From the NCBI GenBank assembly GCA_017302015.1, contig JAFLEE010000028.1:1-53936 (forward strand): a stretch of 53,936 nt of DNA, read 5' to 3'. The stretch comes from Spirochaetota bacterium (lineage in GTDB: Bacteria; Spirochaetota; UBA12135; COTS27; JAFLEE01). The notes beneath the pieces are model-generated. The model was not told the origin of the DNA. It saw only the letters and a list, made by a program, of their open reading frames with translations, and searched no databases. Position 1 is the stretch's first letter; each line of letters starts with the position of its first letter. Shown piece after piece: positions 2,352 to 53,936 of the stretch. A program made the translations under genes and the position numbers.

Positions 2352-2366
2352 GCATATTTCGTGCCA
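2352..2366 (-). promoter_or_regulatory. Sigma-54-type promoter for the MCP-cheW unit
   Basis: Read on the minus strand the site is TGGCACG-AAAT-ATGC. It keeps the diagnostic GG at -24, GC at -12 and ten bases between them, and differs from TGGCACG-N4-TTGC at one position. The predicted start of transcription is near 2340, about 60 bases before the MCP start codon. An NtrC-family activator gene ends just upstream, and an enhancer-like palindrome lies about 100 bp upstream. Confidence 0.7.
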
Positions 2367-2446: not shown

Positions 2447-2462
2447 GCGCAACAAATTGCGC
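2447..2462. promoter_or_regulatory. Candidate enhancer (UAS) for an NtrC-type regulator
   Basis: The sequence GCGCAA-CAAA-TTGCGC is a perfect 6-4-6 inverted repeat. A further TTGCG half-site lies at 2436-2440. Its centre is about 102 bp upstream of the -12 element of the promoter at 2352-2366, a usual distance for enhancers of sigma-54 activators. The same CGCAA-N4-TTGCG pattern stands upstream of the other sigma-54-type promoter, at 15283-15296. Confidence 0.55.
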
Positions 2463-2493: not shown

Positions 2494-3882
2494 TTAGACG
2501 CTTTTCCCGATTTCGATGCCGAGTTTTTTCATGCGGCGCAGGAGCGTATAGATGGTGATCCCGAGGCTTTCCGCGGTGCGGGTCTTGTGGAACGCGTTGG
2601 CCCGCAGGGCGTTTTCGATGGCAATGCGTTCCGGATCGTAGGTCCGGTCGCGTTTCCCGCTTTTTGGCTCCATTGGGGAGGATACAGAGGGGATCGCGAG
2701 GTCTTCGGCAGTAATCTGGGAACCGGGGGAGAGAATCAATGCCCGTTCCATCATGTTGCGAAGTTCGCGGATATTTCCCGGGAACGGGTGGTCGCGGAGG
2801 CGTTGCAACGCGCCGTCGGTCAACGTCGGGGGCTCTCTCCCCATGCGCGCGGCCCCGAGGGCGAGGAAATGGGCGACGAGGGCGGGGAGATCGTCCGGCC
2901 GTTCCCGAAGGGGAGGAATGCGGATCTCGACGGTGGCCAACCGGTAGAAAAGATCGTCGCGGAAACGGCCTTCGGCCCGGAGGCGGGCGAGGTCCTGGTG
3001 GGTGGCGCAGACGAGGCGAAAATCGACGCGGATTTCCCGCGGATCCCCGAGGCGGCGCACCGTACGCTCCTCGAGCGCGCGCAAAAGTTTGGACTGGGCC
3101 TCGAACGGTAGATCGCCCACTTCATCGAGGAAGAGGGTCCCGCCATGGGCCTGTTCGAAGAATCCCGCGCGATCCTCATGGGCGCCCGTGAAGGAGCCCT
3201 TGCGGTGGCCGAAGAACGACGATTCCATCAAAGCCTCGGGGATCGCGCCGCAATTCACCGCGACGAAGGGGCCACCGCTGCGGCTCCCTGCGTGGTGGAG
3301 GAAGCGGGCCATGATCTCCTTCCCCGTGCCGCTCTCGCCCGTGAGGATGACGGAGCAGTCGGGCGACGCCGCGCACCGCGCGACCCTGGAAACGGCGGTG
3401 CGGAACGCCGCGGCCTTCCCGATGATCGGGCCGACTTTTTCGAGGAGTTGCGGTGGGTAGGGCGCCTGCGCCGTCCCTTCCACAACGGGAGGTGAGGCCT
3501 GGGCGAGGTAGCGTCGGGTGCGGCGGATGGCGGCCACGGCCTCGCGGCCCTTGAAGGGCTTGCGGAAGAAATCGCTCGCGCCGCCGCGGAGGGAGGCCAG
3601 CACGGTATCCATGTCCCCGTGGCCGCTCATCATGATGACTTCCAGATCGGGGCGAACGGATTTAATGCGCGTGAGGAGTTCGGTGCCGTCCATCTCCGGC
3701 AATCTCACGTCCAAGAGGACGGCATCCACCCCGCCCTCCCCGAGGGCTTCGAGGGCAGCGGTGGGGGTCGCCGCCGAACGCACCGCGAACTCCTCCAGAA
3801 GGAAGTATTCCCCGAGTTCGCGCCGGACTGCCTCCTCATCGTCTACAATGAGCACGCAAAAAGGAGGCGATGCGGGGTTCAA
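2494..3882 (-). CDS. NtrC-family sigma-54-dependent response regulator
   Basis: The 462-residue protein has a receiver domain (about 8-125, acidic pair D14/D15, phospho-acceptor D58), an AAA+ sigma-54 activation domain with Walker A GESGTGKE, and a C-terminal Fis-type helix-turn-helix. The sigma-54 contact loop reads GSFTGA rather than GAFTGA. I chose the TTG at 3880-3882: it overlaps the kinase stop as TTGA, has GGAGG just upstream, and starts the protein directly before the receiver domain. The kinase at 3879-6011 is the obvious partner. Its recognition helix (LGITIYTLLRRMKK) is nearly the same as that of the regulator at 22457, so both may bind the same DNA sites. Targets in the window are probably the two sigma-54-type chemotaxis promoters, by inference. 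Confidence 0.92.
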   Translation of the reverse strand: MNPASPPFCVLIVDDEEAVRRELGEYFLLEEFAVRSAATPTAALEALGEGGVDAVLLDVRLPEMDGTELLTRIKSVRPDLEVIMMSGHGDMDTVLASLRGGASDFFRKPFKGREAVAAIRRTRRYLAQASPPVVEGTAQAPYPPQLLEKVGPIIGKAAAFRTAVSRVARCAASPDCSVILTGESGTGKEIMARFLHHAGSRSGGPFVAVNCGAIPEALMESSFFGHRKGSFTGAHEDRAGFFEQAHGGTLFLDEVGDLPFEAQSKLLRALEERTVRRLGDPREIRVDFRLVCATHQDLARLRAEGRFRDDLFYRLATVEIRIPPLRERPDDLPALVAHFLALGAARMGREPPTLTDGALQRLRDHPFPGNIRELRNMMERALILSPGSQITAEDLAIPSVSSPMEPKSGKRDRTYDPERIAIENALRANAFHKTRTAESLGITIYTLLRRMKKLGIEIGKSV

Positions 3883-6011
3883 GGCGCCTCCGGGAGGGAA
3901 ATGCGCACGAGGGTCGGTCCGTCCGCCGCGCTCTCGATGTCGATGGTCCCGCCCATATCTTTGATGATGCCCTGGCACAGGGCGAGGCCGAGGCCCGTGC
4001 CTTGGCCCACGGGCTTGGTGGTGAAAAAGGGCTCGAAGAGCCGGTGGCGGATCGCCGGGGGGATCCCGACGCCGTTGTCGCGGATTTCGCAGAGTACCCG
4101 TTGCCCGTCGCGGGCAAGGCGTAGCTCGACGCTCGGTCGATATTCCACCGCGCCCGCGCGTGCGCGCGTCTCGACGGCGTCTTTCGCGTTGGTGAGGAGG
4201 TTGAGGAGGACCTGCTCGAGATCGAAGGGGTTGCCGAGGACGCGTAGGGGCGTTTCCTCGGCCCTCACCGCGAAGGCGACCTGGTGGCGCGCGAATTGGG
4301 CCGCCATGAGGGAGGTGGCGCCTTCCAGGCTCTCCCGTGGATCGAAGGGGCGCGGGGGCTCTCCCCGGCGTTCCCGGCTGAACGCGCGCACGTGCTCGAT
4401 GAGGCGTTGGATCCGGGCGACGTAGCCTTCCACGTGGGCGAGTTTTCCGTCGAAAAGCGCTCCGTCGGCCGGGCCCCGGGATAAGCGTTTTCGAAGCGTT
4501 TCGCACGCCATGCTGATGCCCTGGAGGGGTTGGGTGATTTCGTGGGCCATCCCCGCGGCGAGGGTTCCGAGGGCGAGGATTTTATCGTTCTCCAGGAGCT
4601 GGGTGGCGTGCTGGCGGCGTTCCGCCTCGAGGCTTTCGCGTTCGCGGACATCGAGAAGGCTTAAGCGCAGGACGCCGCGCCCCACGGCCGGCAGGCGGAC
4701 GACACGAATCTCGCAGGGGATGATGGCCCCTTGGCGGTCCTGGATGGGGGTGATGAAGGGGGCGGGCCGCTCCTCGAGGATCACATCGAGGCAATTGGCC
4801 AGGAACTCCCGCACCGCCGAGCCGGGGGCGTCCTTTTTGGAGGCGGCATCGAAGGCCTCCCTGGATCCGTAGCCGAAGAGAGCGATGGCCGAGGGATTGG
4901 CGTCACGGATCTCCCCGTTCTCGGGGTCGAACATGAGGATCGCATCGGGGGCCGATTCCAGGAGGATGCGGAAACGGCTCTCGTTCCGCACCAAGTTCTC
5001 GTACAGGCGTGCTTTGGTGATGGCGAGGCGGACGGTGGAGGTCAGCAGGGGGAGGATGGCGCGCAACTCGACGGTGATCCCGTCGACTTCTTCCGCGGCC
5101 GCGAAAAGGATGCCGAGGCATTCCTCCTCGAACACGATGGGCACGCATAAAAGGGCGCGGATGGGATCGTGGTCGAGGCAATCGCAGCCTTTTTGGCCCA
5201 TCGGGGGGAAGTCCTGGAGATTGGAGGAATAGAAAGGCTCCCGGTTGAGGATGGCATCGTGAAGGGGCGTGCCCCGGAGGTCGGACCTTTGGCCCGCGCA
5301 ATGGTGATCCCGGCCAGGGCTTCGGGCAAAGCAGTGGTAGGAGCCCGTCTCGGCGCGCAGGAGGAGACACCCCGGCCTCGGGGTGAAGTTCTGGAGGAAT
5401 TCGAGGATACATCCGGCGATCTGCCCTTCGTCCAGTAAGAAGAGCCGGTTTTGGAACAGGGAAATCGCCTGGAGAAGATCGCGTTGGGCTTTGAGGTCGC
5501 GCTCCCGCTTGCGAAGGCGTTCCTCGACGGCGATCCGATCCGTGATGTCGATCCCGAACGATAGGGTGCCGACGACCTTTCCCTCCCGCACGAGGTGGCT
5601 ATTGCGCCAGGAAAGCGTTCGGATCTGGCCGCTCTTCGTCTGGATGGGGCCCTCGAAATGGCGGAGCGGGTCGCCCTGGGCGATCTTCTGGAACGCTTGC
5701 GAAGCCCGGGGGGCGAGGTCGGGAGGCACGGCGGCCCGGATCCAATCCGTCCCGAGCATTTCGCCCCTCAAATAGCCGGTGATCTCCTCCGCGGCGCGGT
5801 TGAAGAGAACGACGCGCCCCCCAAGATCGAGGCCCACCACCATGGCGTCGGCGGTCTCGAGCATGCGCTCCGAAAATGCATGGGCCTCCTGGAGCGCCGT
5901 CTGGCTCCGCAGGAGGCGCCTGGTCTGCCGCCAGGAAATGGCGATGGCCGCGAAGAGTAGCGCGATGGCGCTGACGAGGACGAGATCGTGGGGATTCGGT
6001 TCGAGGGTCAC
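3879..6011 (-). CDS. NtrB-like sensor histidine kinase, PAS-GAF-PAS
   Basis: The start is the GTG at 6009-6011, which overlaps the cheB stop as GTGA and has GGGGAGG upstream, giving 710 residues. One membrane helix at about 9-27 is followed by a PAS domain (about 50-160), a GAF domain (about 190-335), a second PAS (about 345-460), a HisKA domain with the phospho-histidine H490 in AHEITQPL, and an HATPase with N608, DNGVGI (645-650) and GTGLGL (671-676). The GAF domain is rich in Cys and His (C215, H226, C227, H236, H237, C238, C276, C278, H281), unlike the paralogous kinase at 19941, which suggests metal or redox sensing. It should phosphorylate the overlapping regulator. The layout is certain; the signal is not known. 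Confidence 0.93.
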
Positions 6012-7078
6012 GCCGAGCGCGCCCTCCCCAGCACGTATTCGGTGATGCGCCCCAGGGGAAGCACGACATCCACCCCCCCCATCTTGATCGCCTCCTTCGG
6101 CATGCCGAAGATCACGCAACTCTCCTCGTCCTGGGCCACGTTATGGGCGCCGCACTCGTGCATCTCGAGCATGCCCCGGGCGCCGTCGTCGCCCATGCCG
6201 GTGAGGATCACGCCGAGGGCGTTGGCGCCGGCGTAGCGCGCCGCGGAGCGGAAAAGAACGTCGACCGAGGGGCGGTGGCGGTTGACCAGGGGGCCGTCCT
6301 TCACCTCCACGTAATAGCGGGCCCCGCTTCGCTTGAGGAGGAGGTGGCGGTTCCCCGGGGCGATGAGCGCGTGGCTGCGCAGCACCGAGTCGCCGTCCTG
6401 GGCTTCCTTCACGTTCACCTGGCAGAGTTCGTTGAGGCGGTCGGCGAAGGAGCGGGTGAAATTCTCGGGCATATGCTGGACGATGACGATCCCCGGGGTG
6501 TCGAGGGGAAGGGCGGTGAGCAGTTCGCGCAGCGCCTCGGTGCCCCCGGTGGACGCCCCGATCGCCACGACCTTCTCGGTGGTCTGGATCATGGCGCGGC
6601 TCTGGGCCTTGGCCAGGATGACGTCGGCTGAGAGTTTGGGTTCGACCGCGCCGAGGGGGCGGCGGCGGTCGAGTCGGGCCTTGGCGGCGGATTTCACGGC
6701 ATCGATGAGGTGGATGCCCGATTCTTCGAGGAATTGCCGCGTGCCTAATTGCGGTTTGGTGATGATGTCCACCGCCCCGAGTTCCAGCGCACGCATCGCG
6801 GTCTGGGATCCCTCGGCGGTGAGGCTCGAGCAGACCACCACGGGGATCGGGTGCTGGGCCATGAGTTTCTTGAGGAAGGTCAGCCCGTCCATGCGGGGCA
6901 TCTCGATGTCGAGGGTGATGACGTCGGGGGCGATCTCGCGCATGCGCTCGGCGGCGAGGTAGGGGTCGGCGGCGAGGCCGATGACCTCGAGTTCGGGATC
7001 GCTCTGGAAGATGGCCTCGAGGGTCTGGCGCACCACGGCCGAATCGTCGACGATGAGCACCTTGATGCGGGGATTCAT
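6008..7078 (-). CDS. cheB: CheB protein-glutamate methylesterase
   Basis: The 356-residue protein has an N-terminal receiver domain (D11/D12, phospho-acceptor D57) and a C-terminal methylesterase domain. The catalytic triad is visible as S176 in GASTGG, H202 in QHMP and D298 in GMGDDG. CheB removes methyl groups from MCP glutamates and deamidates glutamines, counteracting CheR for adaptation. Its start overlaps the cheR stop (ATGA) and its stop overlaps the kinase start (GTGA), so translation of all three is coupled. Length is normal for the family. Confidence 0.97.
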
Positions 7079-7932
7079 GGGGCCTTCCGGTAGAGGGTGG
7101 GCTCGATCTGTTCCAGGCCGTGGGCGAAGCCGAAGATCGATTCGGAGTGGCCGAGGAAGAGGTGGCCCCCGGGGGCGAGGTGCTCTTTGAGGCGGCCGAT
7201 GATGCGCTCCTGGACCGCCTTCTCGAAATAAATCAGCACGTTGCGGAAGAAGATGAGGTGCATGCCGTGGGGGGCGGCATAGACTTCGTCCATGAGGTTG
7301 AGCACGCGGAAGCGCACCTGGGCGCGCAGGGCGGGCGCGATGCGCACGAGGCCTTCTTTCGCGTCGCTCCCGCGAAGCAGATAGCGGCGGCGGAAGGCCT
7401 CGGGGATTGGTGCGGCCGTGTCCTCGTGGTAGACCGCGCGAAGGGCCCTTTGGATGGCGGGCTCGGACACATCGGTGGCGAGGAGGTTGAAATCAAGTGG
7501 CACGGCGCGCGAGGCGCGGTAATCATCGAGCACCATGGCGAGGGTGTAGGGTTCTTCTCCGGTGGAGCAGCCGCAGCTCCACGCCAGGAGGGGTGCGGCG
7601 CTCCCCACACCCCGGGCGAGGAGTCCGGGGAGGACCGTGGCGGTGAGGGTTTCAAAGTGCTGGCGCTCCCGGAAAAACTCAGTCTTATGGGTGGAGACGA
7701 GGTCGCTGAAGAAGGGGAACTCTTCGACGCGCCCGACCTCGCCGCAAAGGTAATCCCAATAGGCCTCGAAACTATCGAGCCCCAGGGCCCTCAGGCGTTT
7801 CGAGAGCCGGCCCTCCAGCAGCGACTTCTTGCTCGGGGGGGTCTTGATGCCGAATTGGGCCTCGATGAACTCGCCCAGGCGGGCGAGGAGTTCGTCGCTT
7901 AAGGTGAAGCACCCGGGGGCGGCCTGGGCCAT
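7075..7932 (-). CDS. cheR: CheR MCP glutamate methyltransferase
   Basis: The protein has 285 residues, the usual CheR length. An N-terminal all-helical domain is followed by a SAM-dependent methyltransferase domain. Family motifs include THKTEFFRE, the SAM-binding [16 protein letters not shown] and FFRNVLIYF. It methylates glutamates on the MCP signalling domain and sets receptor sensitivity with CheB. The gene lies between cheW (9-bp gap) and cheB (ATGA overlap). The downstream-encoded adaptation enzyme CheD is not present in this window. Confidence 0.97.
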
Positions 7933-7941
7933 GGGACGCCC

Positions 7942-8451
7942 TCAGGCTTCTTGGGCGTCGCTTTGCGCGCTCGCTTCGGCGACGGCGTCCATTTCCTTCC
8001 TGGAGAAGACGCGGTCGGAATCCAGGAGGATGACGAAGGTACCCCCCTTCTTCCCGATCCCCGCGATGAACTCGCCGGAGAGGCGCATGCCGACCTTGGG
8101 CGCCTCCTCGATCTCGCCGCCGTCGAGGCGGATGACGGCCTTCACCGCGTCGACCAGGGCGCCGATGACGAAGGTCTCCCCCTCCTGGGACGCCTCCACG
8201 ATGATGATGGAGGTGTCGACGGTGGCTTCGGTCGCCGGCAGGTCGAACTTCAGGCGGAGGTCGACCACGGGCACCACGCCCCCGCGTAGGTTGATGACGC
8301 CGACCATGAAGGCGGGGGTCTTGGGCACCTTGGTGATGCGCGTGACCTCCAGCACCTCCCGCACCTTGAGGACTTCGAAGGCGAAGAGTTCCTTGTCGAG
8401 GAGGAAACTGAGGAATTGCCTGGATTCGGTGCTCGTTTTCGCTTTGTCCAT
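7942..8451 (-). CDS. cheW: CheW chemotaxis coupling protein
   Basis: The 169-residue CheW has the conserved VREVLEV, INLRGGVVPVVDLRLKF and LSGEFIAGIGKKGGTFVILLD stretches. I chose the ATG at 8449-8451 because GGGAG stands five bases upstream; an in-frame ATG four codons earlier (8461-8463) has no ribosome site and lies three bases after the MCP stop. It couples the neighbouring MCPs to CheA. It is a close paralogue of the partial CheW at the left window edge, and both follow an MCP gene directly, which suggests an ancestral duplication of an MCP-cheW pair. Confidence 0.96.
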   Translation of the reverse strand: MDKAKTSTESRQFLSFLLDKELFAFEVLKVREVLEVTRITKVPKTPAFMVGVINLRGGVVPVVDLRLKFDLPATEATVDTSIIIVEASQEGETFVIGALVDAVKAVIRLDGGEIEEAPKVGMRLSGEFIAGIGKKGGTFVILLDSDRVFSRKEMDAVAEASAQSDAQEA

Positions 8452-8466
8452 GGGGTCTCCCATCGC

Positions 8467-10137
8467 TCAGTATTTCTTGAAATCGCCGTCTTCGTGGTCG
8501 CCGGGGTTCGAGAGGTCGAGTTGGATGCCGCCGGGTTTCACGGGGGTCATGCCCCCGGTGGCCTTGGCGCGGGCGACCTGGGGGCGGGCGGCCGCGTGGG
8601 GAAGCCGCGCCACGGGGGCCCGGGCGGCGGCGGGGTTCGCGCGGTCCTCCTCGATTCGGAAGAAGCCGATGGTCTCCTGGAGTTGCATGGCCTGGGAGGA
8701 GAGTTCCTCGGCGGTGGAGGCGATCTCCTCGGCCCCGGCGGCGTTCTGCTGAACGACCCCGGAGAGCTGCTGCATGGCGTTATTGATCTGCTGGGCGCCG
8801 TTATTCTGCTCGGCGCTCGCGGCGTTGATCTCGGCCACCAGTTCGGCGGTCCGCTGGATATCGGGGACGAGTTTTTCGAGCATGGTGCCGGCCTTCTCGG
8901 CCACCTCCACGCTCGATTTGGACAGTTCGCCGATCTCTCCGGCGGACTGCTGGCTGCGTTCGGCGAGCTTCTGGACCTCGCTGGCGACGACGGCGAAGCC
9001 CTTGCCGTGCTCGCCGGCCCGGGCCGCCTCGATGCTCGCGTTGAGGGAGAGCAGGTTGGTCTGGCGGGCGATCTCCTGGATGATGGAGACCTTGTCGGCG
9101 ATGGATTTCATGGCCGCGACCGTGCGCCGCACGGCCTCGCCCCCGTCCTTGGCGTCGGTGGCGCTCTTGGTGGCGATCTTCTCGGTTTGGCTCGCGTTGT
9201 CGGCGTTCTGGCGGATGGTGGCGGTCATCTCCTCGATGGAGGCGCTCACCTCCTCGACGCTCGCCGATTGCTCGTTGGCCCCCTGGGAGAGTTCCTCGGA
9301 GGAGGTGGACATCTGCTCGCTGCCGGCGGCCACGTTCCCGGAGGCCTGCTTGACCCCGGCGACCACTGAGGTGAGTTTCTGGAGCATGGCGTCGAGGGCC
9401 TTGGCGAGATCGCCCACTTCATCCTTTTGGTTGCGGTACTTTTCATTGAGGCGAATCATGAGGTTCCCCGCGGCGATCTCGCCCGCGAAGCGCACCCCGG
9501 CCCCCAGGGGCACGGTGATGGTGCGGGAGATGAGGATCCCGGAGAGGAGGCTCAAGAACACCCCTGCTAGGGCGAGGGCGATGCCGGTGGTGGTCGTCTG
9601 TGATATTTGCGTGTCAAATTCCTGGTCGGATTTCGCCTGCTCGGCGAGAAGCGATTGGGTGTATTTATTAAGCGGTTCTTCATAAGTGAGGAGAAGGGCG
9701 TCCATTTCGCCGTCCAAGGTTTCGATCGCCTTGGTGTCATTAGCGATAGCCGCTGCGAGGATCTTGTTCTCGTAGAGGAAGAGGATTTTTGCGAGCGCAG
9801 CCGAAGCATCGGCGATCCATTTTTTCTCCGTGGGAGTGTCGGCGATGCGAGTGAGGTCCTGGATATCGTCGAGGCATTCCTTCTTGACGGCGGCCCAGCG
9901 CGTGGCGGCATCCTTGAAGTCGCGGTTGATGATGGTGTCGGCCACGACCCGATAAATTTTATTTCCCATGCCGGCCCCTTCTTGGGCGGTCACCCCATCT
10001 TTTGTACGTCTACCGCCCTCATCCTGCATCGCGGAGAAACGTTTGAATTGGGTATAGTTGTAGATTGTCAACCCGCCCATGATGAGAAGGAGGAATCCAA
10101 AGCCGAGGGCGAGTTTCAATCCGATGCTGAATCTCAT
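8467..10137 (-). CDS. Methyl-accepting chemotaxis protein (transmembrane)
   Basis: I start this 556-residue receptor at the ATG 10135-10137, which has AAGGAG six bases upstream; longer forms add 21 unlikely residues. A membrane helix at about 7-25 is followed by a helical periplasmic domain, a second membrane helix, HAMP and the long signalling coiled coil with the [16 protein letters not shown] tip. The Ala/Pro-rich linker ends in [11 protein letters not shown]...DFKKY. The last five residues, DFKKY, fit the aromatic-x-x-aromatic pattern of CheR-docking pentapeptides. It lies between the outer-membrane-like gene and cheW in the main operon. A weak TTGACT-N17-TATTCA promoter may lie at the end of the upstream gene. 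Confidence 0.95.
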
Positions 10138-10165
10138 GCCAATCTCCTTAGAATGAATATTATGC

Positions 10166-10747
10166 CTAAAAAGTGTAGTCAATGCTGACCAGGGGTTCAA
10201 GCCCCAGGGTCGCCGGGGCGCTGGCGAGGCCGAGGTTGAACTTCAACTTCAAGCCGAGGTTCCATTTTCCCCATTCGAAGGTATAGCCAGGCACCAGGGA
10301 GACCTTGCCGAAGCCGAAGGCCCCGAAATCCAAGTAGGTGAACTCGCCCTGGAGCGACCATTTTCCGAGGCCCACATTGAGGTAGACGAACCCCCCGAGG
10401 CCGATGGGCGAGGCGAAAGTGAGGCTATTATCGTTTCCGAAGGTCAGGCCGAGGTTGGCCTTCTCATTGAGGGTCACGCCGTACTCTTCGATCAGTTCCA
10501 ATTGGGTGGGGCCGCCCCAGGGCGCGAGGGGGAACCCGTAGGCCAGGGAAAGGACGAAGCCCGAGCCGGCCACGTCCCAATTGAAGTAGGGCTTGAGTGA
10601 GAATTGGAAGCCCGCGCTGGGGTAGGTGAGAAGGTCCCCGAAACTCGATTCCACCCCGAGGGTGAAGGCATGGCCCCCCTTTTCGCCCGCCCAGGCCGGG
10701 AGGGTCAGGAAAATCGCGAGGAGGATGGGAAGGCGTTGTGGTTTCAT
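10166..10747 (-). CDS. Predicted outer-membrane beta-barrel protein inside the che operon
   Basis: The 193-residue protein begins with a signal peptide ([20 protein letters not shown], cleavage near residue 20). The rest is rich in alternating hydrophobic and polar residues, glycine and aromatic residues, with no Cys, and it ends in phenylalanine (IDYTF), as outer-membrane barrels typically do. I do not recognise a named family. The start overlaps the cheA stop as ATGA, so its translation is tied to the chemotaxis kinase, an unusual position for an envelope protein. It could be a porin-like channel or a periplasmic lipocalin-like barrel; the barrel reading is an inference from composition. 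Confidence 0.7.
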
Positions 10748-12864
10748 GGGAGCACCTGCGTGGGGGTCTTAGCCCGCTCGCCGGCGATGGCGTGGCGGGC
10801 GATGGCGTTCACGTCGAGGATGAGGGCGACCGTGCCGTCGCCCAGGATGGTGGCCCCCGCCACCTCGTCGGTCTGCCCGAAGGCGGCGCCCAGGCTCTTG
10901 ATGACCGTCTGGTGCTGACCGAGCACGTCGTCGACGACCACGCCCATGCGCCGTCCGCCGATGCGCGCGACCACCATGCGTTCGATGGGAGGGCGGTTCC
11001 CGGCGATGGCGAAATGCTCCCTCAGGCGGATATAGGGCACCATGTCCCCACGGAGGTCGACGACCTCGCTGCCGTTGCCGGTGGCCAGGATGGCCGGGGT
11101 GAGGTCGACGCACTCGTCGACGGCGCTCAGGTTGAGCACGTAGAAGTCGCCCCCGATGCGGGAGAGGAGGCCGTCGATGATGGCGAGGGTGAGGGGGATG
11201 CGCAGCGCCATGCGTGTGCCCAGGCCGGCCTTGGAGGAGACCTCCACGGTCCCGCGCAGGCGCTCCACGTTCTTCTTGACCACGTCCATCCCCACCCCGC
11301 GGCCGGAAACGCTCGTCGCCTTGGCGGCGGTGGAGAATCCCGGGAGGAAGATGAGTTGGATGATCTCCTGTTCGCCCAGTTCCGCCCCCTCCTTCACGAG
11401 GCCCTTTTCCACCGCTTTGGCGAGGATGCGCTCGGGACGGAGGCCCCCCCCGTCATCCTCCACCGACAGCAGCACGTGGGCGCCCTCGTATTCGGCGGAG
11501 AGGGTCACCGTTCCCACCGCCTGCTTCCCGGCGGCGGCGCGCGCGGGAGCGTCTTCGATGCCGTGGTCCACCGCATTGCGCAGGATATGCATGAGGGGGT
11601 CTTTCAGGGCATCGATGACGTTCTTGTCGAGTTCGGTCTCCGCCCCGCGGAGCACGAGGTTCACATCCTTCCCCACCTCGTGGGAGACGTCGCGCACGAG
11701 GCGGTGGAAGCCGCGGAACATCTCCTCCACCGGCACCATGCGCATGCCCATGGCGGTATCGCGCAAGTCGCCGCTCAAGCGGCCGAGGGCCTCGGAAAGG
11801 GCGCGGAAATCGCCGTCGGCCTTGCGGGCGGCGGTCTGGTGGAAGCGCGAGTGGAGCGTCACGATTTCGCCCACGAGGTTGACGAGGGCGTCGATCTTCT
11901 CGCTCTTCACCCGGATGCTGGCGTGGCTCTGCTCCTCGCGGCGGCGGTCGTGGACCGCCTTCAGGGCCTCCTGTTCGGTGAGGGCCTGGGCGAGGTGGGC
12001 GTTCTCGACGAGCCCCTTCTCGAGGGCGATCTCGCCGAAGCGCTTACGGTCCCTCAGGATCTCCTCGAGGGCTTCCCGGGTGAGGTGGCCCCGCTCGAGG
12101 AGGATATCGCCGATGCGGCGCACCCCATCGCCCGAGGTGAGTTCCCCGTCGACCGCTTCGATGCGCAGGTCGCAGAAATCCACCACGAAGATGAAGGCGT
12201 CGCGGATGGCGTCCTCCCCGCGGTCGGTGCGGAGCACCAGGCACCACGAGGTCAGGCAGCGTTCCGGGTCGAAGGAATCGAGGGGACCGACCTCGGGGGT
12301 GGCGAAGACCTGCAGGTCTCCCAGGCCCCGGAGTTCCTCGAACAGGGCGAGGGGATTGCTGCCGCGCAGGAAGAGGTCTTCTTTCGGGATGAAATGGATG
12401 AGGAAGGTCTTGGCCGCCTCCAGGGGCGCGCCGGGGGAGGCGGGGCCCGGCGCGGGAGCGGGGGAGGTCGTGGGAGGCGCGGAGGGGGCGCCTCCCACGT
12501 TCCGCAGGGATTCGACGAGGGGCCTTGTCGATTCGGGGGGGACCTCGGCGCCCGGCTCGAGCATGAGCGCCACATGGTCGCAGGCGGCCAGGGTGAGGTC
12601 GATGATGGCCTTGTCGGCCTTGAGTTCGCCCTTGCGCATGCGGTCGAAGAGCGCCTCGAACTCGTGGGCGAACCCCGAGAGGGCGGAGAAGCCGAACATG
12701 GCCCCCGACCCCTTGAGCGTGTGCAGGGCGCGGAAAATCTGGTTCACCGTCTCGAGGTCGTGGGGCGCGCGCTCGAGGTCGACGAGCAGGTGCTCCATGC
12801 GCTCGACGAGCTCGTGGGCTTCCTCCCGGAACGTTTCGGCGAGTTTGGCGGGATCCAAGGCCAT
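10744..12864 (-). CDS. cheA: CheA chemotaxis histidine kinase
   Basis: The 706-residue kinase starts with an HPt domain whose phospho-histidine is H48 in ALHTLKGSG. A Pro/Ala linker (about 123-148) leads to an atypical P2-like region (about 150-248). A helical segment at 249-302, built like the N-terminal domain of type II secretion ATPases (IGDILLERGHLT... then FGEIALEKGLV), comes next. The dimerisation helices (about 317-385), the HATPase core with HILRNAVDHGIED, DDGGG and GRGVGMDVV, and a C-terminal CheW-like domain complete it. It transfers phosphate to CheY and CheB in response to MCPs. It sits 9 bp after the STAS gene. Confidence 0.97.
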   Translation of the reverse strand: MALDPAKLAETFREEAHELVERMEHLLVDLERAPHDLETVNQIFRALHTLKGSGAMFGFSALSGFAHEFEALFDRMRKGELKADKAIIDLTLAACDHVALMLEPGAEVPPESTRPLVESLRNVGGAPSAPPTTSPAPAPGPASPGAPLEAAKTFLIHFIPKEDLFLRGSNPLALFEELRGLGDLQVFATPEVGPLDSFDPERCLTSWCLVLRTDRGEDAIRDAFIFVVDFCDLRIEAVDGELTSGDGVRRIGDILLERGHLTREALEEILRDRKRFGEIALEKGLVENAHLAQALTEQEALKAVHDRRREEQSHASIRVKSEKIDALVNLVGEIVTLHSRFHQTAARKADGDFRALSEALGRLSGDLRDTAMGMRMVPVEEMFRGFHRLVRDVSHEVGKDVNLVLRGAETELDKNVIDALKDPLMHILRNAVDHGIEDAPARAAAGKQAVGTVTLSAEYEGAHVLLSVEDDGGGLRPERILAKAVEKGLVKEGAELGEQEIIQLIFLPGFSTAAKATSVSGRGVGMDVVKKNVERLRGTVEVSSKAGLGTRMALRIPLTLAIIDGLLSRIGGDFYVLNLSAVDECVDLTPAILATGNGSEVVDLRGDMVPYIRLREHFAIAGNRPPIERMVVARIGGRRMGVVVDDVLGQHQTVIKSLGAAFGQTDEVAGATILGDGTVALILDVNAIARHAIAGERAKTPTQVLP

Positions 12865-12873
12865 GGAGGGCTC

Positions 12874-13224
12874 CTAGGCGGCGGAGGGCTGGTGGAACGG
12901 GCAGGCCGTGGTGGACCCGGGGCACTGCGCGCGGCGGAAGAACCCGGAGCGTTCGACGGCCTGGCGCACCGCGGCCGAGAGGCGGTGGTTGACGCATTCG
13001 AGGGTGCGGTGCTCGCGCTGGAAGTACCGGTGCGCCGATTCGAGGATCTGGAGGAAGGAGATATCGCACGCCGTCACCCCCTCGCACGCGAGCCGCAGGC
13101 GTTTCGCGCGGGCGGCGCAGGCGAGGAGGGCGTCGCGGAGCGCGCGCGCCTGTCGGATGTCGGCTTCGCCGGTCAGGGTCAGGGTGGCGGTCTCGCCGTC
13201 GAACTCGGATCGGATCTCGAGCAT
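12874..13224 (-). CDS. STAS-domain protein in the che operon
   Basis: The 116-residue protein has a STAS fold pattern: an N-terminal beta segment (TLTLTGEADIRQARALRDALL) and the central CDISFLQIL loop, in which the serine of the D-x-S element corresponds to the phosphorylatable serine of anti-anti-sigma factors. The C-terminus has extra Cys and His (CPGSTTACPFHQ). In rhizobial che operons a STAS protein (CheS) next to cheY and cheA promotes dephosphorylation of the kinase/CheY pair; the same position here suggests a similar role, by analogy only. It lies 13 bp after cheY and 9 bp before cheA. Confidence 0.82.
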   Translation of the reverse strand: MLEIRSEFDGETATLTLTGEADIRQARALRDALLACAARAKRLRLACEGVTACDISFLQILESAHRYFQREHRTLECVNHRLSAAVRQAVERSGFFRRAQCPGSTTACPFHQPSAA

Positions 13225-13237
13225 GGGGGCCCCCGGT

Positions 13238-13600
13238 TCAGCCGATGACGCGCTTGACGGTCTCTTTGAGCTTATCGGGCGTGAAGGGCTTCACCAGCCA
13301 GGCGGTCGCCCCGGCGGCCTTGCCCTCGGCCTGCTTGCCGGCGTCGCTCTCGGTGGTGAGCACGACGACGGGGATGAACTTCGTCTTCTCCCCCGCGCGC
13401 ATGGCCTTGATCAGTTCGATGCCGGTCATCCCGGGCATGTTGATGTCGGTGATGACGAGCTTCAGGGCGTCGCCCATTTTCGCCAGCGCGGCCTGGCCGC
13501 CGTCGGCCTCCACCACCTCGTAGCCGTCCTCGGAGAGGGTGAAGTTCACCATCTGCCGCATGGAGGGCGAGTCGTCGACGATGAGGATCTGCTTGCCCAT
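13238..13600 (-). CDS. cheY: CheY chemotaxis response regulator
   Basis: This is a single receiver domain of 120 residues with D9/D10, phospho-acceptor D52 (VITDINMPGMTG), the T83 switch region and K104 (LVKPF), all standard for CheY. Phospho-CheY would bind the flagellar switch. It lies between the MCP at 13609 and the STAS gene, with gaps of 8 and 13 bp. No CheZ or CheX phosphatase was found in the window, so the STAS protein or unlinked genes may handle dephosphorylation. Confidence 0.96.
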   Translation of the reverse strand: MGKQILIVDDSPSMRQMVNFTLSEDGYEVVEADGGQAALAKMGDALKLVITDINMPGMTGIELIKAMRAGEKTKFIPVVVLTTESDAGKQAEGKAAGATAWLVKPFTPDKLKETVKRVIG

Positions 13601-13608
13601 GATTGCTC

Positions 13609-14898
13609 CTAAGCCTTGGGGGGCGTCTGGCCCCCGAGGGATTCCTTCAGGATGTCCATCTCTTCTTTCATCGTGTAGAAGCCGGCGAGCCAGGCGGCGA
13701 TGGCGTCGCGGTTGGATTGGGGGGCGGCGTTGCCGGCGTAGGGCTCGAGGCCCGCGCCGAGTTCTCCCAATTGGGCGCGCACCTGGGTCAGCGGCTCGAG
13801 CACGTGCTCCACCCTCTGGCGGATGATGTCGTGGAACTGCATGGAGATGACGGCCTCGCTGGTGTTCTTGGCCAGGGATTCGGCGTCGCGCCGCAGCCCT
13901 TCCATCTCGCCGCGGATCGACTCGATGACGCCGTTGATGCGCCCCACGGTGCTGGCGAAGAGGTGCTCCGCGTCGCCCGCCTGGCGCGCCACGGTCGCGG
14001 CCCCCGATTCGATCTCCCGGTGGATGTCGCGGGCGGTGGCCGTCATGTCGGAGAGGATGCTCTTGATATCGTGGGCCGTGCGCTCGGTGAGTTGGGAGAG
14101 TTTGCGCACCTCCTGGGCCACCACGCTGAAGCCCTTGCCGTGGACGCCGGCGCGGGCGGCCTCGATGCCTGCGTTGATGGCCAGCACATTGGTGCGGTCG
14201 GCGATCTCGGCGATGGAGTGGAGGTGGGATCCGATGCGCTCGGACTGCTGGATGATGCGCCCGACCGAGTCGAGGTTGCGCCGGCTGACGTCGCCGGCCT
14301 CGCGCACGTTGGCCACGAGGGCGTTGAGCGCCGTCTTGGTGGAGTCGAGGACGTTCCCCCCGCCGCCGAACTCGTCGCCGGAGAGGGAGGCGAAGACCGA
14401 CTCGGTCTTCGCGGATTGGCTCTTGGCCTTGGCGTGGATCTCGAAGAAAGCCGCCCCGATGGTGGCCGCGGTGGTCTCGATCTGGCTGCGCACGGAGGCG
14501 AGCTGGGAGAGGAGCACGCCGAGGCCGAGGGTCTTGCCCCGCAGGTCGGGCGGGATGCGCTCCAGGGCCTGGGTGAGTTCCTCCATGCGGGAGAGGGGTT
14601 CCGCTTTCGCCCGTTCGAGGCGCTTCTCGAATTCATCGGCTTGCCGCCTCAGTTCCTCTTGGTGCTGCGCTTGGCGCAGGCGCTCCTTCTCGATGAGGCC
14701 GTCGATTTCCCGGCCGAGGGCGGCCGTCTCGCGTTCTTTTTCCCTAAGGCGGCGCCACAGGGGCGGCAAGGGCAAGAACCAGCATAAGAGCGCGAGCGCC
14801 GCAGCGCCGATGCGTAGCCCGGGATGGGGAAGGAGCGCGCTGGCGAGCGCCAGGAGGGCCCCGCAGGCGGTGAGGATGAGGACCGAGCGGGGTTTCAT
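13609..14898 (-). CDS. MCP-type signalling protein without periplasmic domain
   Basis: The 429-residue protein has two closely spaced hydrophobic helices at the N-terminus (about 5-24 and 29-45), a coiled coil (about 50-110) and a divergent MCP signalling domain with [27 protein letters not shown]. There is no HAMP domain and no extracellular sensor domain, so it should sense an internal or membrane signal. The later part ([20 protein letters not shown]) is typical of cytosolic-sensing MCP relatives. It lies second in the supra-operon, 12 bp after the small CxxC protein and 8 bp before cheY, comparable to the internal chemotaxis protein IcpA at the head of rhizobial che operons. Confidence 0.9.
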
Positions 14899-14910: not shown

Positions 14911-15126
14911 TCAGCAGGCTTCGCGGATGACTTGGCGATGGAACAGGTGGGATCCGTCTTCCTCGACCCGGGCTTCCGCCGGAACGCCCTGCTTGAGGAG
15001 ACGGGTGAAACAAGAGAAGCAGACGGCATGGGTATGGTCTTCTTGGTGGAAATAGCCGGCGAGGGGATGGGCCCGCGCGCCGCAAAGGCTGCAAACCTGA
15101 TGGTTTTCATGGCGGATGGTTTCCAT
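14911..15126 (-). CDS. Small double-CxxC (zinc-ribbon-like) protein, first gene of che operon
   Basis: The 71-residue protein starts at the ATG 15124-15126, preceded by a G-rich ribosome site; a longer form from 15159 is less likely because it would begin almost at the predicted transcription start. It holds two CxxC pairs (CSLC near residue 11 and CFSC near residue 36) separated by a His-rich stretch (HPLAGYFHQEDHTH), and ends in Cys. This is the pattern of a small zinc ribbon. I recognise no family. As first gene of the sigma-54-controlled chemotaxis operon it may be a regulatory or assembly factor, which is conjecture. Confidence 0.7.
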   Translation of the reverse strand: METIRHENHQVCSLCGARAHPLAGYFHQEDHTHAVCFSCFTRLLKQGVPAEARVEEDGSHLFHRQVIREAC

Positions 15127-15155: not shown

Positions 15156-15170
15156 GCATGAATCATGCCA
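15156..15170 (-). promoter_or_regulatory. Sigma-54-type promoter for the chemotaxis supra-operon
   Basis: On the minus strand the site reads TGGCATG-ATTC-ATGC, keeping GG-N10-GC at -24/-12. Transcription should start near 15144, giving a leader of about 18 bases that carries the ribosome site of the small CxxC protein. It resembles the site at 2352-2366 (both end in ATGC) and has a matching enhancer-like repeat upstream at 15283-15305. Confidence 0.65.
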
Positions 15171-15282
15171 GCTACTTGGAGAAAAAGGGCTGGAGTTCGG
15201 GTCAATGTGTAAATGTTGGATGACAGTGAATATGGAAACAAGGGGTGGCGCAGGCCTTTTATGGAAGCGTCCCCAGTTATAC

Positions 15283-15305
15283 CGCAAAAGATTGCGATTT
15301 CGCAA
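15283..15305. promoter_or_regulatory. Candidate enhancer (UAS) with three half-sites
   Basis: The sequence is CGCAA-AAGA-TTGCG-ATTT-CGCAA, three alternating half-sites each four bases apart. The first pair repeats the CGCAA-N4-TTGCG element at 2447-2462. The pair is centred about 133 bp upstream of the -12 element of the promoter at 15156-15170. That is 31 bp, close to three helical turns, further than in the other unit. The site also lies about 50-75 bp upstream of the divergent argB promoter. Confidence 0.55.
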
Positions 15306-15357: not shown

Positions 15358-15386
15358 TTGAAAGAGCAGGGCAGAAATCGTATAAT
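15358..15386 (+). promoter_or_regulatory. Sigma-70 promoter for the argBDF operon
   Basis: TTGAAA at 15358-15363 and a perfect TATAAT at 15381-15386 are separated by exactly 17 bases. Transcription would begin near 15393, about 50 bases before the argB start. It is among the best sigma-70 matches in the window. No obvious ARG box or attenuator is visible in the short leader. Confidence 0.8.
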
Positions 15387-19618: not shown

Positions 19619-19940
19619 CCTGAGAAAATGCCCCTGGAACGGCCCATAGGCAAGCCGACCTCCGCGGGTTTAGGGAATGCTTTCCGTGGGAGGACGCGGC
19701 TTCGCCGACTCCCTTGGTGGAAGTTATTCTGGCGCCTGGCTTACCTATTCCTTGGAGCCTGCATGGAGCAAAGCGCCGACATGACCGCAATCAGGATTGA
19801 CATGGCCCGCCCGAACGGCGAATTCCGGGGCGCTTGGGGGATTTTTGGGAGAATGATCGGCAATGCCCTTTTCCAGGTTTATAATAGAGGATGCTTCGCG
19901 GGAATCATCCAGTCGCCCTAATGGGGCATCGGATGGCCGG
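19619..19940. other. Intergenic region between divergent genes
   Basis: The 322 bp separate the minus-strand DUF2141 gene from the plus-strand kinase. A perfect TATAAT lies at 19880-19885 and could serve the kinase, but no good -35 stands 16-18 bp upstream. A perfect TTGACA at 19797-19802 lacks a matching -10. No CGCAA-N4-TTGCG enhancer element was found here. I see no gene or RNA. Confidence 0.4.
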
Positions 19941-22460
19941 ATGAATTGGCCCCAACCGCTCCTCCATAGCCCCCCGGGGAGTCTCTGGCTTTGGCTGACG
20001 GGATTCGTCGCCATCGCCCTGCTCGCCTACGCCTTCCACCGCGCCCTCCAAAGGCGGCGGACGGCCGAATGGGCGCGCCATAGCCAGCGCGTTTTTTCCG
20101 CCGCCTTCCAGAATAGTCCGGTCCTCATGGCCATCAGCCGCGGGGAAGGGGGCGCCCTCCTCGAGGCGAACGAGCGCTTCCTGGCGGTGTTCGGTTACGG
20201 CAAGGAGGAACTCCTCGGCCGCACGATCCTCGAGCTCGGCCTCATCCCCGATCCCGCCGCTCGGGAGGCGATCCTCGAGGTTCTTCGGGAGCGGGGGCGG
20301 GTGAGCGGCTTCGAACTCCCATTGGCGACGAAATCAGGCCAGCGGCTCTGGGGGTCCTTCTCGGCCCAGGCCATCGAATTGGCCGGGGAACCCTGCCTGC
20401 TCATCGTCCTGAGCGATATCACCGAGCGCAAGCGGATCGAGGAGGCCCTGCGCGAAAGCGAGGCCCGCTTCCGGACCCTGGCCGACCATACCACCGACCT
20501 CATCGCGTGCTTCTCCCTCGACCACCGCCTCCTCTATGCCAGCCCCGCCGCGCTGCGCTTCATGGGCCGTCAGGCGGAGGACGTGCTGGGCCGCACGGCG
20601 GCGGAGATGGGCATGGGGTTCGACGACCTCGGCCTCAACGAGGGGGCCCTGCGCCACGCCCGAGAAACCGGCGAACCCCACCAGGTCGATTTTTCCGTCC
20701 GAAGGGGGGAGCTCACGCGCCATTTCAATTGGCGTCTCGTCCCCGAGTTCGACGCCGGGGGCCGCCTGGTGAGCATCCTCACCACGGCCCGCGATATCAC
20801 CGACCTGCGCCGGCGCGAAGGCGACCTCGACTTCCAGCGGCGCCTCATGCAGTCCCTGGCCGTCTTCCAGAACAAGCTCTTCCTCCAGGACGAGATGGGG
20901 ATCCTGCGCCTCACGCTGGAGTTCATCGCGCGCTTCGTGCCGGTGGCGCGCGCCATCGTCCTCGGGCCCCAGGGGTTGGCGCGGCGCTACACCCTCGTCG
21001 GCGGGGCGTTCACGGCGGGCGAACTGCCCGTCGAGAGCCTCGAGGGGATGCTCCAGAAGCGGATCATGGATCACCGGGAACCGATGTCGGTGGACGAGGT
21101 GGACCGCGAAGCCGGCCTCCATCCCGCCGAAAGGCAGAGCGCCCTGAAAGACGGCGTGCGCTCTTTCTTCGCCATCCCCATCGTCTTCGAAGACCTTTGC
21201 CTGGGCCTGCTCTACGCGGGCGACCGCGAGGCCGCGGGCGTGCCCCAAGACCTGCGGAACATCATGCCGCTCCTCTCCTCCATCGCGGGCATCGCGCTCA
21301 AGAAGGCCCAACTCTACGACGAGGCCCGGCACAACGAGGCGTGGTACCGGACTCTTCTGGAGAACGCCCCCGATGGCCTCGTGATCTTCGACCTCTGCGC
21401 CTGCCGCATCCTCGAGATCAACGCGCAGGCCCTCGCCCTCTTCGGGCTGCCGGCGGGGGAAGGCGCCGATCTCCCGCCGCCGGGTTCGCCGCCGAGCGGG
21501 CTCGACCGGTTCCTCGCCGAGCATTACGAACGCTTCGTCCTCGAACCGCGGGACCGATTCGAGAGCCGCATCCTCCACAGCGGGGGGCGCAGCATCCCCT
21601 GCGAGGTGCGCACGGTCCACCTCCCCCCCGAACCGGGGCTCGTGGTGCGCATCAGCCTGGCGGACGCCAGCGAGCGCGAACGGGCCGAGGCCGCGCGGCA
21701 ACGGCAGGCCCAGGGGCTCATGCAGGCCGACAAACTCCTCGCCTTGGGCGAGCTCGCCGCGGGCCTGGCCCACGAGATCACCCAACCCCTCTCGGGCATC
21801 GCCTTGGCCTCCCAACTCCTCCTCAAGCAGGCGGAATCGGGGGCGATGGAACCGGAACGCTTCGCGAAGAAATTGCACGACATCGGCACCTACGTCGACC
21901 GCGTGCGCCATCTCATCGAGCACGTGCGCACTTTTTCCCGGGAACGGCGCGACGACGGCCGGGGACTCTTCGACCTGCGCGAGAGCGTGCGGCGGGCCGT
22001 CTCGCTCACGGGGACCCAATACGAGAACCACCAGATCTCCCTGGAGGTGGACTGCGGGGAGCGCCCCCTCGCGGTGCGGGGCAACGCCTACGCCCTCGAG
22101 CAGGTGGTCCTCAACCTGCTCTCGAACGCCAAGTACGCGGTGGAAAAGCGCGCCCAGGCGGAGGGGGACGGCTTTCGCCGCTCGATCTCGGTGAAGACCC
22201 TCGCCGTCGGCGGCGATCGGCAACTCGAGGTGCTCGATAACGGCACCGGGATCCCCGAGGCCGTCCGCCACCGGCTCTTCGAGCCCTTCTTCACCACCAA
22301 GCCGGTGAACGAGGGAACGGGCCTGGGGCTCTCGGTGAGCTACGGCATCGTGAAAAATATGGGCGGGGAGATCCGCTTGGAGAGCCGCGAAGGGGAGTAC
22401 ACCCGGGTGGTCGTCTCGTTCCCGGGCCCCGACCCGCACGACGGGGAGCGCTCGCCATGA
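19941..22460 (+). CDS. NtrB-like sensor histidine kinase, PAS-PAS-GAF-PAS
   Basis: I start at the ATG 19941-19943 so that the membrane helix (about 14-34) lies near the N-terminus as in the paralogous kinase at 3879; an in-frame ATG at 19863 would lie upstream of a TATAAT. The 839-residue protein has PAS domains at about 50-165, 170-290 and 463-575, a GAF domain at about 305-455, a HisKA domain with H611 in AHEITQPL, and an HATPase with DNGTGI and GTGLGL. Its GAF domain lacks the Cys/His cluster seen in the other kinase, and it has one extra PAS. It overlaps the regulator start by ATGA, forming a two-component pair. Confidence 0.92.
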   Translation: MNWPQPLLHSPPGSLWLWLTGFVAIALLAYAFHRALQRRRTAEWARHSQRVFSAAFQNSPVLMAISRGEGGALLEANERFLAVFGYGKEELLGRTILELGLIPDPAAREAILEVLRERGRVSGFELPLATKSGQRLWGSFSAQAIELAGEPCLLIVLSDITERKRIEEALRESEARFRTLADHTTDLIACFSLDHRLLYASPAALRFMGRQAEDVLGRTAAEMGMGFDDLGLNEGALRHARETGEPHQVDFSVRRGELTRHFNWRLVPEFDAGGRLVSILTTARDITDLRRREGDLDFQRRLMQSLAVFQNKLFLQDEMGILRLTLEFIARFVPVARAIVLGPQGLARRYTLVGGAFTAGELPVESLEGMLQKRIMDHREPMSVDEVDREAGLHPAERQSALKDGVRSFFAIPIVFEDLCLGLLYAGDREAAGVPQDLRNIMPLLSSIAGIALKKAQLYDEARHNEAWYRTLLENAPDGLVIFDLCACRILEINAQALALFGLPAGEGADLPPPGSPPSGLDRFLAEHYERFVLEPRDRFESRILHSGGRSIPCEVRTVHLPPEPGLVVRISLADASERERAEAARQRQAQGLMQADKLLALGELAAGLAHEITQPLSGIALASQLLLKQAESGAMEPERFAKKLHDIGTYVDRVRHLIEHVRTFSRERRDDGRGLFDLRESVRRAVSLTGTQYENHQISLEVDCGERPLAVRGNAYALEQVVLNLLSNAKYAVEKRAQAEGDGFRRSISVKTLAVGGDRQLEVLDNGTGIPEAVRHRLFEPFFTTKPVNEGTGLGLSVSYGIVKNMGGEIRLESREGEYTRVVVSFPGPDPHDGERSP

Positions 22461-23845
22461 ACCCGTTCCGGGTGCTCATCATCGACGACGAGGACGTCAT
22501 CCGCCGGGAACTCGGCGAGTTCCTGGCCGACGCGGGTTTCGAGATCCTCGAGGCGGCCACCCCTTCCCGGGCCTTCTCCGTGCTCGACGCCCAGAAGGTC
22601 GATGTGGCCATCCTCGACGTGCGGCTGCCGGAGATGGACGGCATCGAGGTGCTGCGCCGCCTCAAATCCGAATCGCCCGAACTCGAGGTGATCATGATGA
22701 CCGGCCACGGGGACATGGAGACCGTGGTGGCCGCCCTGCGCCTGGGCGCCTCCGACTTCTTCAAGAAACCCATCGAGGGCCCCGAGGTCCTCGCGGCCAT
22801 CGAGCGCACCAAGCGCTTCCTGCTCCTCCAGGGGCAGGTGCGCACCCTGGAGGCCAATTACGCGGGGCTCTCGGGGGAGGTGGTGAAGCAGGTGGGCGAG
22901 ATCGTGGGGGCGAGCGCCGCCATGCGCCGGGTGGTCGATCTGGCCCTGCGGGCCGCCAAGAGCCCGGACACCGGGGTCATCATCACCGGCGAGAGCGGGA
23001 CGGGCAAGGAGCTCCTCGCCCGCGTGCTGCATTTCGCCTCGACCCGGGGCGACCGGCCCTTCCTCGCCGTCAATTGCGCGGCGATCCCCGAGACCCTGGT
23101 GGAGAGCGAGTTCTTCGGCCACAAGAAGGGCGCGTTCACCGGCGCCCATGAGGACGCGGCGGGTTATTTCGAGAACGCCCAGGGCGGCACCCTCTTCCTC
23201 GACGAGATCGGCGACCTCTCCCTCCCCGCCCAATCCAAACTCCTGCGGGTGCTCGAGACCCGGGTCGTGCGGCGCATCGGGGGCAGCCGCGACCTGCCCG
23301 TGGAGTTCCGCGTCGTTTGCGCCACCCACCGGAACCTGCTCCAGAGGGTGAAGGAGGGCCAATTCCGGGAAGACCTCTATTACCGCCTGGCCACCCTGGA
23401 ACTCCAGGTGCCCCCCTTGCGCGAGCGCATGGAAGACCTCCCCGCGCTCCTCGAGTTCTACGTGAAGGCGTTCGCCGCGCGCCTGGCGAGGCCGGTGCCC
23501 GCCATCGATGCGGCGGTCGCCCCCTCCCTGGCCCCCTATCCGTTCCCGGGCAATATCCGGGAACTGAAGAACATGGTCGAACGCGCGGTCATCCTTTGCG
23601 AGGGAGACCGCCTGTTGCCCGAGCATTTTTCCCATCCCCCCGCGGCTCCCCTGGCTTCCGCCGAGATCGCCCCTGAGGGGGAATTAAGCGGCGACCTGGC
23701 CGCCAAGGAAAGCCGCGCCCTCTCCGAGGCCCTGCGCGCCTGCGACTTCAACAAGACGCAGGCGGCCAAGCGCCTGGGCATCACGATCTTCTCCCTTTTG
23801 AGGAAGATGAAGAAGCACGGGCTCGAGGTCGACAAGCGCCTCTAG
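22457..23845 (+). CDS. NtrC-family sigma-54-dependent response regulator
   Basis: The 462 residues hold a receiver domain (phospho-acceptor D54 in AILDVRLPEMDG), an AAA+ domain with Walker A GESGTGKE, an intact sigma-54 contact loop GAFTGA and Walker B LFLDEIGDL, and a Fis-type helix-turn-helix at the C-terminus (LGITIFSLLRKMKK). Length and layout equal those of the regulator at 2494, and the recognition helices differ only by conservative changes, so the two may share DNA sites. Translation is coupled to the kinase. The target promoters are unknown; the two sigma-54-type chemotaxis promoters are candidates. Confidence 0.94.
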   Translation: MNPFRVLIIDDEDVIRRELGEFLADAGFEILEAATPSRAFSVLDAQKVDVAILDVRLPEMDGIEVLRRLKSESPELEVIMMTGHGDMETVVAALRLGASDFFKKPIEGPEVLAAIERTKRFLLLQGQVRTLEANYAGLSGEVVKQVGEIVGASAAMRRVVDLALRAAKSPDTGVIITGESGTGKELLARVLHFASTRGDRPFLAVNCAAIPETLVESEFFGHKKGAFTGAHEDAAGYFENAQGGTLFLDEIGDLSLPAQSKLLRVLETRVVRRIGGSRDLPVEFRVVCATHRNLLQRVKEGQFREDLYYRLATLELQVPPLRERMEDLPALLEFYVKAFAARLARPVPAIDAAVAPSLAPYPFPGNIRELKNMVERAVILCEGDRLLPEHFSHPPAAPLASAEIAPEGELSGDLAAKESRALSEALRACDFNKTQAAKRLGITIFSLLRKMKKHGLEVDKRL

Positions 23846-49766: not shown

Positions 49767-51290
<1,524 letters not shown>

Positions 51291-51350
51291 ATTGGAGAAA
51301 CGGCTGAAAGATGTCCTTGGAACCCTCGGGTTCCGTGGATGGAGTACGCC

Positions 51351-51380
51351 GAGGGCTCAACACTGTCTGTTTTTGATAAA
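51351..51380 (+). ncRNA. 3' arm of the 16S processing stem
   Basis: This segment pairs with 49535-49564 to form the pre-16S RNase III stem. Confidence 0.8.
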
Positions 51381-51393
51381 TGTTCTTTGACAT
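51381..51393 (+). promoter_or_regulatory. boxA antitermination site before 23S
   Basis: TGTTCTTTGACAT matches the boxA pattern and the copy in the 16S leader, including the nearby CAGAC. Confidence 0.6.
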
Positions 51394-51481
51394 TCAGACT
51401 TGATTCAAGGTAACAACGATCTTCACTGGGAAGACGTGTCGAACATTTGATACAAATGACAGCTCACCTGTCAAAAGGTAT

Positions 51482-53936
<2,455 letters not shown>

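Follow-up and report, generated by a model that had tools for sequence, protein, structure and literature searches.

Which regulator controls the large chemotaxis operon in the window, by which we mean the whole analysed stretch of 53,936 nucleotides from a Spirochaetota bacterium, and does the operon share this control with other genes? The initial annotation had proposed a self-encoded sigma-54 regulon of two units. The motif TGGCATG-N4-ATGC, which it placed just before the first gene, is indeed present on the minus strand at 15170-15156 (TGGCATGATTCATGC), where it forms a -24/-12 promoter element of the type GG-N10-GC, 29 bp 5' of the ATG (15126) of operon gene 1. The CGCAA/TTGCG array with N4 spacers was likewise found upstream of it, also on the minus strand (15305-15283). 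This putative enhancer reads TTGCG-AAAT-CGCAA-TCTT-TTGCG, three alternating half-sites in 9-bp steps, and its centre lies 133 bp from the -12 GC of the promoter. We refer to this pair of elements as unit 2. Unit 1 resides in a 216-bp gap between the regulator gene of the operon and a gene for a methyl-accepting chemotaxis protein (MCP; 415-2277, minus strand; PF00015, 4HB_MCP, HAMP). It consists of the predicted sigma-54 promoter TGGCACGAAATATGC (2352-2366, minus strand), again GG-N10-GC, and the palindrome CGCAATTTGTTGCG (2448-2461, minus strand), whose centre is 102 bp away from the -12 GC. Thus, both enhancer-to-promoter distances given previously were reproduced on re-measurement. The claim that the two units share half-site and spacing holds for the N4 palindrome, which occurs in both, but not for the spacing of the third half-site: unit 1 has an exact N4 palindrome in the CGCAA...TTGCG register only, and its additional half-sites (TTGCG, 2464-2460; CGCAA, 2440-2436) are spaced otherwise. 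TTGCG-N4-CGCAA and CGCAA-N4-TTGCG are both candidates for the true dimer site. Compared with TGGCAYG-N4-TTGC, each of the two promoters exhibits a single mismatch at the first T of TTGC. The strict pattern TGGCAYG-N4-WTGC occurs only twice in the window, as does exact CGCAA-N4-TTGCG, while a first-order Markov model of the window predicted 0.09 and 0.06 sites, respectively. Paired promoter and palindrome events were obtained in none of 200 simulations with this model.

The operon comprises twelve minus-strand genes between 15126 and 2494, which either overlap or are separated by no more than 13 bp. Its first gene (14911-15126) encodes a 71-aa CxxC...CxxC protein, which looks faintly like a zinc ribbon (Zn_ribbon_NUD, E 0.006, below the cut-off). 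It is followed by genes for an MCP (13609-14898, PF00015), CheY (13238-13600, PF00072), a STAS-domain protein (12874-13224, PF13466, E 1.8e-13), CheA with Hpt, dimerisation, HATPase and CheW domains (10744-12864), a 193-aa protein with a signal-peptide-like start and no Pfam match (10166-10747), a further MCP (8467-10200, PF00015), CheW (7942-8463, PF01584), CheR (7075-7932, PF01739) and CheB (6008-7078, PF01339, above the NCBIfam CheB cut-off). The last two genes encode a PAS-GAF-PAS histidine kinase (3879-6011; PAS, GAF, HisKA, HATPase), whose start was set to GTG 6011 because there it overlaps the stop codon of the CheB gene, and an NtrC-type response regulator (2494-3882; PF00072, PF00158, PF02954). 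Elsewhere in the window, a flagellin gave a good match to solved FlaB-type flagellins, and 16S and truncated 23S rRNA genes occupy the window end (49767-53936, plus strand).

The regulator starts with TTG 3882, overlapping the kinase stop, and is composed of a receiver, an AAA+ domain and a Fis-type HTH. The phospho-acceptor Asp and the motifs GESGTGKE, GSFTGA (a variant of the GAFTGA loop) and GGTLFLDE are present, and by domains and motifs the protein belongs to the NtrC-type enhancer-binding response regulators. It is not NtrC proper, as it scored 382.8 bits with TIGR01818 compared to an equivalog cut-off of 558.6, and it stayed far under the NCBIfam cut-offs for NtrC, FlgR and FlbD. A longer ORF of 670 aa was rejected, its first 208 residues being an out-of-frame artefact; with this ORF as query, a contig scan of the genome disclosed distant NtrC paralogues only. 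The operon-encoded regulator is the probable activator of the regulon and the PAS-GAF-PAS histidine kinase its probable partner. Since this pair ends the operon, the resulting loop would be autoregulatory.

We also searched the complete genome (G000, 5.4 Mb) for the same patterns. The gene rpoN, whose presence the initial annotation had wished to see confirmed, was identified on contig C50 (PF04552, E 1.3e-46). Exact CGCAA-N4-TTGCG occurs three times in the 5.4 Mb, namely at the two window sites and at G000:C114:25852, and all three copies precede a strict GG-N10-GC promoter on the same strand and then a chemotaxis gene: the che operon, the MCP gene behind the activator gene, and an unlinked cheD (cheD1). 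The exact array of three half-sites was found at unit 2 and cheD1 only. At cheD1 it reads TTGCG-AAAA-CGCAA-TGCG-TTGCG, and the promoter TGGCATGCTTGTTGC follows in the same orientation, 102 bp from its centre, ahead of cheD. In the other register, exact TTGCG-N4-CGCAA, five sites exist in the genome, three of which (unit 2, cheD1 and a second gene, cheD2) precede a promoter and a che gene; the remaining two reside in coding sequence without a promoter. The gene cheD2 is located on contig C25 behind the promoter TGGCATAGTTTATGC, with a palindrome-to-promoter spacing of 110 bp compared to 111 bp at cheD1. Both cheD products reached 65.8 bits with Pfam CheD (cut-off 25), though neither attained the NCBIfam CheD equivalog cut-offs. 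The two cheD promoters (L115, 7757-7771; L207, 7918-7932) leave 12 bp to the first in-frame ATG, so that translation probably begins at a later codon, or else the mRNAs lack a leader.

Further members were disclosed by searches tolerating mismatches. An array search with up to two mismatches led to a second locus on C25, below cheD2: a run of four half-sites in alternating orientation stands above TGGCACCGTTTATGC, behind which a STAS-like gene follows (Pfam STAS_2, E 8.5e-5, under the curated cut-off). Contig C161 contributes a strict promoter whose upstream site, at 92 bp, has one mismatch; behind this promoter lie genes for an MCP, a CheW 65% identical to that of the operon, a histidine kinase and a regulator of the NtrC type. 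The genome contains 17 strict sigma-54 promoters including that of the che operon, and for five of them the preceding 230 bp or so contain a near-exact palindrome, while 0.28 were expected. Some of the extra sites came from loci chosen for such matches, by which the site counts are biased. Altogether, the same combination of site and promoter was found at the che operon, the MCP gene, cheD1, cheD2, the STAS-like gene and the C161 MCP cluster; the proposed regulon is thus supported and extends beyond its two original units. Near-matches on C149, C89, C124 and C141 were ascribed to chance, as they reside in or near coding sequence and lack a suitably placed promoter. Another perfect sigma-54 promoter, TGGCACGTATATTGC (G000:C94:31171, minus strand; L210, about 9186), lies before a gene for a lipoprotein-like multihaem cytochrome of the MtrC/MtrF type. 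This gene was kept out of the core regulon because it has only a one-mismatch palindrome (TTGCGAAATCTCAA) at 211 bp from the -12 GC; it is possibly a weak member.

The distances between palindrome centre and GC amounted to 102, 133, 102, 100.5, 122 and 134 bp at six sites, and two sites with a single palindrome added 92 and 81 bp. At 10.5 bp per turn all of them fall within about 2 bp of a common phase (R 0.92; p 0.0014 for six sites and 0.00014 for eight). Two sites alone, from which a location on the same DNA face had been deduced, are weak evidence of phasing, but with six to eight sites the effect is significant, and for the four sites that the initial annotation did not know p was 0.03. 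Because register and period could be chosen with some freedom, the phase lends support to the regulon, short of proof.

Conservation of both elements in a genome retaining the operon was established for one relative. An exact-array search through 392 further genomes of the phylum yielded a single match, in a genome of a different class (G146, contig C58). There the distance from the array down to a perfect sigma-54 promoter (TGGCATGGTAGTTGC) is 134 bp, compared to 133 bp in unit 2, and the array heads an orthologous che operon with the order small CxxC protein, MCP, CheY, STAS, CheA, MCP, CheW (CheY 73% and CheA 59% identical). Further along, CheR and then a kinase and regulator pair 45% identical to that of the operon are encoded, followed by a second perfect sigma-54 promoter, another small CxxC gene and an MCP gene. 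This second promoter has TTTGCA-N4-TGCAAA at 81 bp. Despite the same array, the activator of the G146 operon possesses a differing recognition helix. In G162 (contig C1; L254, 4786), a paralogous che cluster contains a kinase, an NtrC-type regulator, a perfect sigma-54 promoter and a che operon in a row. Its palindromes are different (e.g., GCCCG-N4-CGGGC), and activator and half-site may have changed together in this cluster. No comparable or near-consensus promoter was detected in front of the orthologous clusters of G088, G093, G017, G062, G070 and G081, the first four of which belong to other families. Of three genomes sharing the order or class, none has the operon. In the clusters of G088 and G093, cheD is located between cheR and cheB, where the operon described here lacks it. 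This fits a cheD that left the operon yet kept its control site.

The activator may nevertheless be another protein. It is possible, if clearly less probable than control by the operon regulator, that the regulon is real but that the main protein bound to the array is a paralogous regulator of the NtrC type, or that several compete for it, and that the loop is not closed. Two paralogues, encoded in the window at 22457-23845 and at G000:C161:64-1455, contain recognition helices (ITIFSLLRKMKK and ITIYTLIRRMKK) which are nearly identical to that of the operon regulator (ITIYTLLRRMKK) and unlike those of the other regulators compared. With helices so similar, either paralogue could bind the sites too, or instead, and the C161 cluster even has its one-mismatch site above its own sigma-54 promoter. 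On the other hand, the operon regulator gene sits inside the operon and adjoins the site of unit 1, and che-linked histidine kinase and response regulator pairs followed by sigma-54 promoters recur in relatives. The paralogue in the window, 54% identical to the operon regulator, belongs to a second histidine kinase and NtrC-type regulator pair downstream of the arg genes (19863-23845, plus strand), for which no target site was recognised.

A different regulator served by the palindromes, for example a repressor or one acting on the divergent argB operon, with the sigma-54 promoters activated in some other way, appears quite unlikely to us. The array does lie between argB and the che operon, and argB has its own strong sigma-70-like promoter (TTGAAA-17-TATAAT, 15358-15386, plus strand). 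However, the palindrome recurs before unlinked che genes and not before arg genes, and it is always found above -24/-12 elements, in helical phase and at 92-142 bp, which is usual for enhancers and not for repressor sites. That the motifs are functionless chance resemblances is hardly conceivable: although bare palindromes are genome-wide no more numerous than reversed control patterns, the signal lies in their pairing with promoters and che genes (3/3 and 3/5) rather than in their number, and the orthologous operon of G146 keeps the pair with a spacing differing by 1 bp.

Thus, we consider it very likely, judging from sequence patterns, that the region is the control region of a sigma-54-dependent chemotaxis regulon, with the operon's own regulator as the likeliest activator. 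As the sites recur at scattered che genes and at the operon of a relative, the operon-encoded activator probably switches these navigation genes together. In the proposed mechanism, the linked histidine kinase would phosphorylate the NtrC-type regulator, which would then bind the TTGCG-N4-CGCAA-N4-TTGCG array. A DNA loop of about 100-134 bp would put the regulator in contact with sigma-54 polymerase poised at the -24/-12 element, and the AAA+ domain of the regulator would open the promoter by hydrolysing ATP. Other targets of this activator would be the downstream MCP gene, the two unlinked cheD genes, the STAS-like gene and probably the paralogous MCP-cheW cluster on C161. With a common activator, receptor, kinase and adaptation proteins would be made together under positive autoregulation. 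Binding, looping, the choice of the kinase and of the paralogous activator, and the signal are what we infer here. A more far-reaching version is rather doubtful: CheA and the linked PAS-GAF kinase, whose genes share one operon with that of the regulator, might jointly set the phosphorylation of the activator, so that signalling would feed back on the expression of receptor, kinase, CheD and STAS protein through phase-locked arrays, each che cluster of the phylum having its own activator and half-site.

Chemotaxis operons have mostly been studied for signalling and less for the co-expression of receptors and adaptation proteins. In the present genome, a common enhancer appears to tie unlinked cheD and STAS genes to the operon. 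A complete regulon, with genes, activator, binding site and geometry, is predicted from sequence alone in a phylogenetically isolated lineage. It can be put to the test as an example of a che cluster driven by the two-component system that it encodes itself. The paralogous clusters provide material on the joint divergence of activator and half-site.

In the flagellar regulons of NtrC, FlgR and FlbD type, an activator composed of receiver, AAA+ domain and Fis HTH acts from a palindromic enhancer about 100 bp upstream on a -24/-12 promoter. The regulon predicted here resembles them in activator architecture, palindromic enhancer and promoter, but its targets are signalling genes and not flagellar structure genes. 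In Geobacter, che and mcp clusters have predicted sigma-54 promoters directly in front (Tran et al. 2008, PMC2577667), as do the che operon and mcp genes here; the available text of that study mentions neither a shared enhancer nor a cognate activator, whereas in the present genome the operon, an MCP gene, two cheD genes and a STAS-like gene share one array. In Myxococcus xanthus, the Che3 system is tied to the histidine kinase CrdS and the NtrC-like sigma-54 activator CrdA, which is described as timing developmental aggregation (PMC3510030). The combination of chemosensory system, histidine kinase and NtrC-like activator is the same here, but unlike CrdA the regulator is predicted to act on the chemotaxis genes themselves, its own operon among them. 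Nothing closer, in the sense of che-encoded NtrC regulators controlling che operons, was found in the open-access literature, and the wider literature may differ. Sigma-54 promoters of che genes and che-linked NtrC regulators are each known, and it is the shared, dispersed regulon that is new.
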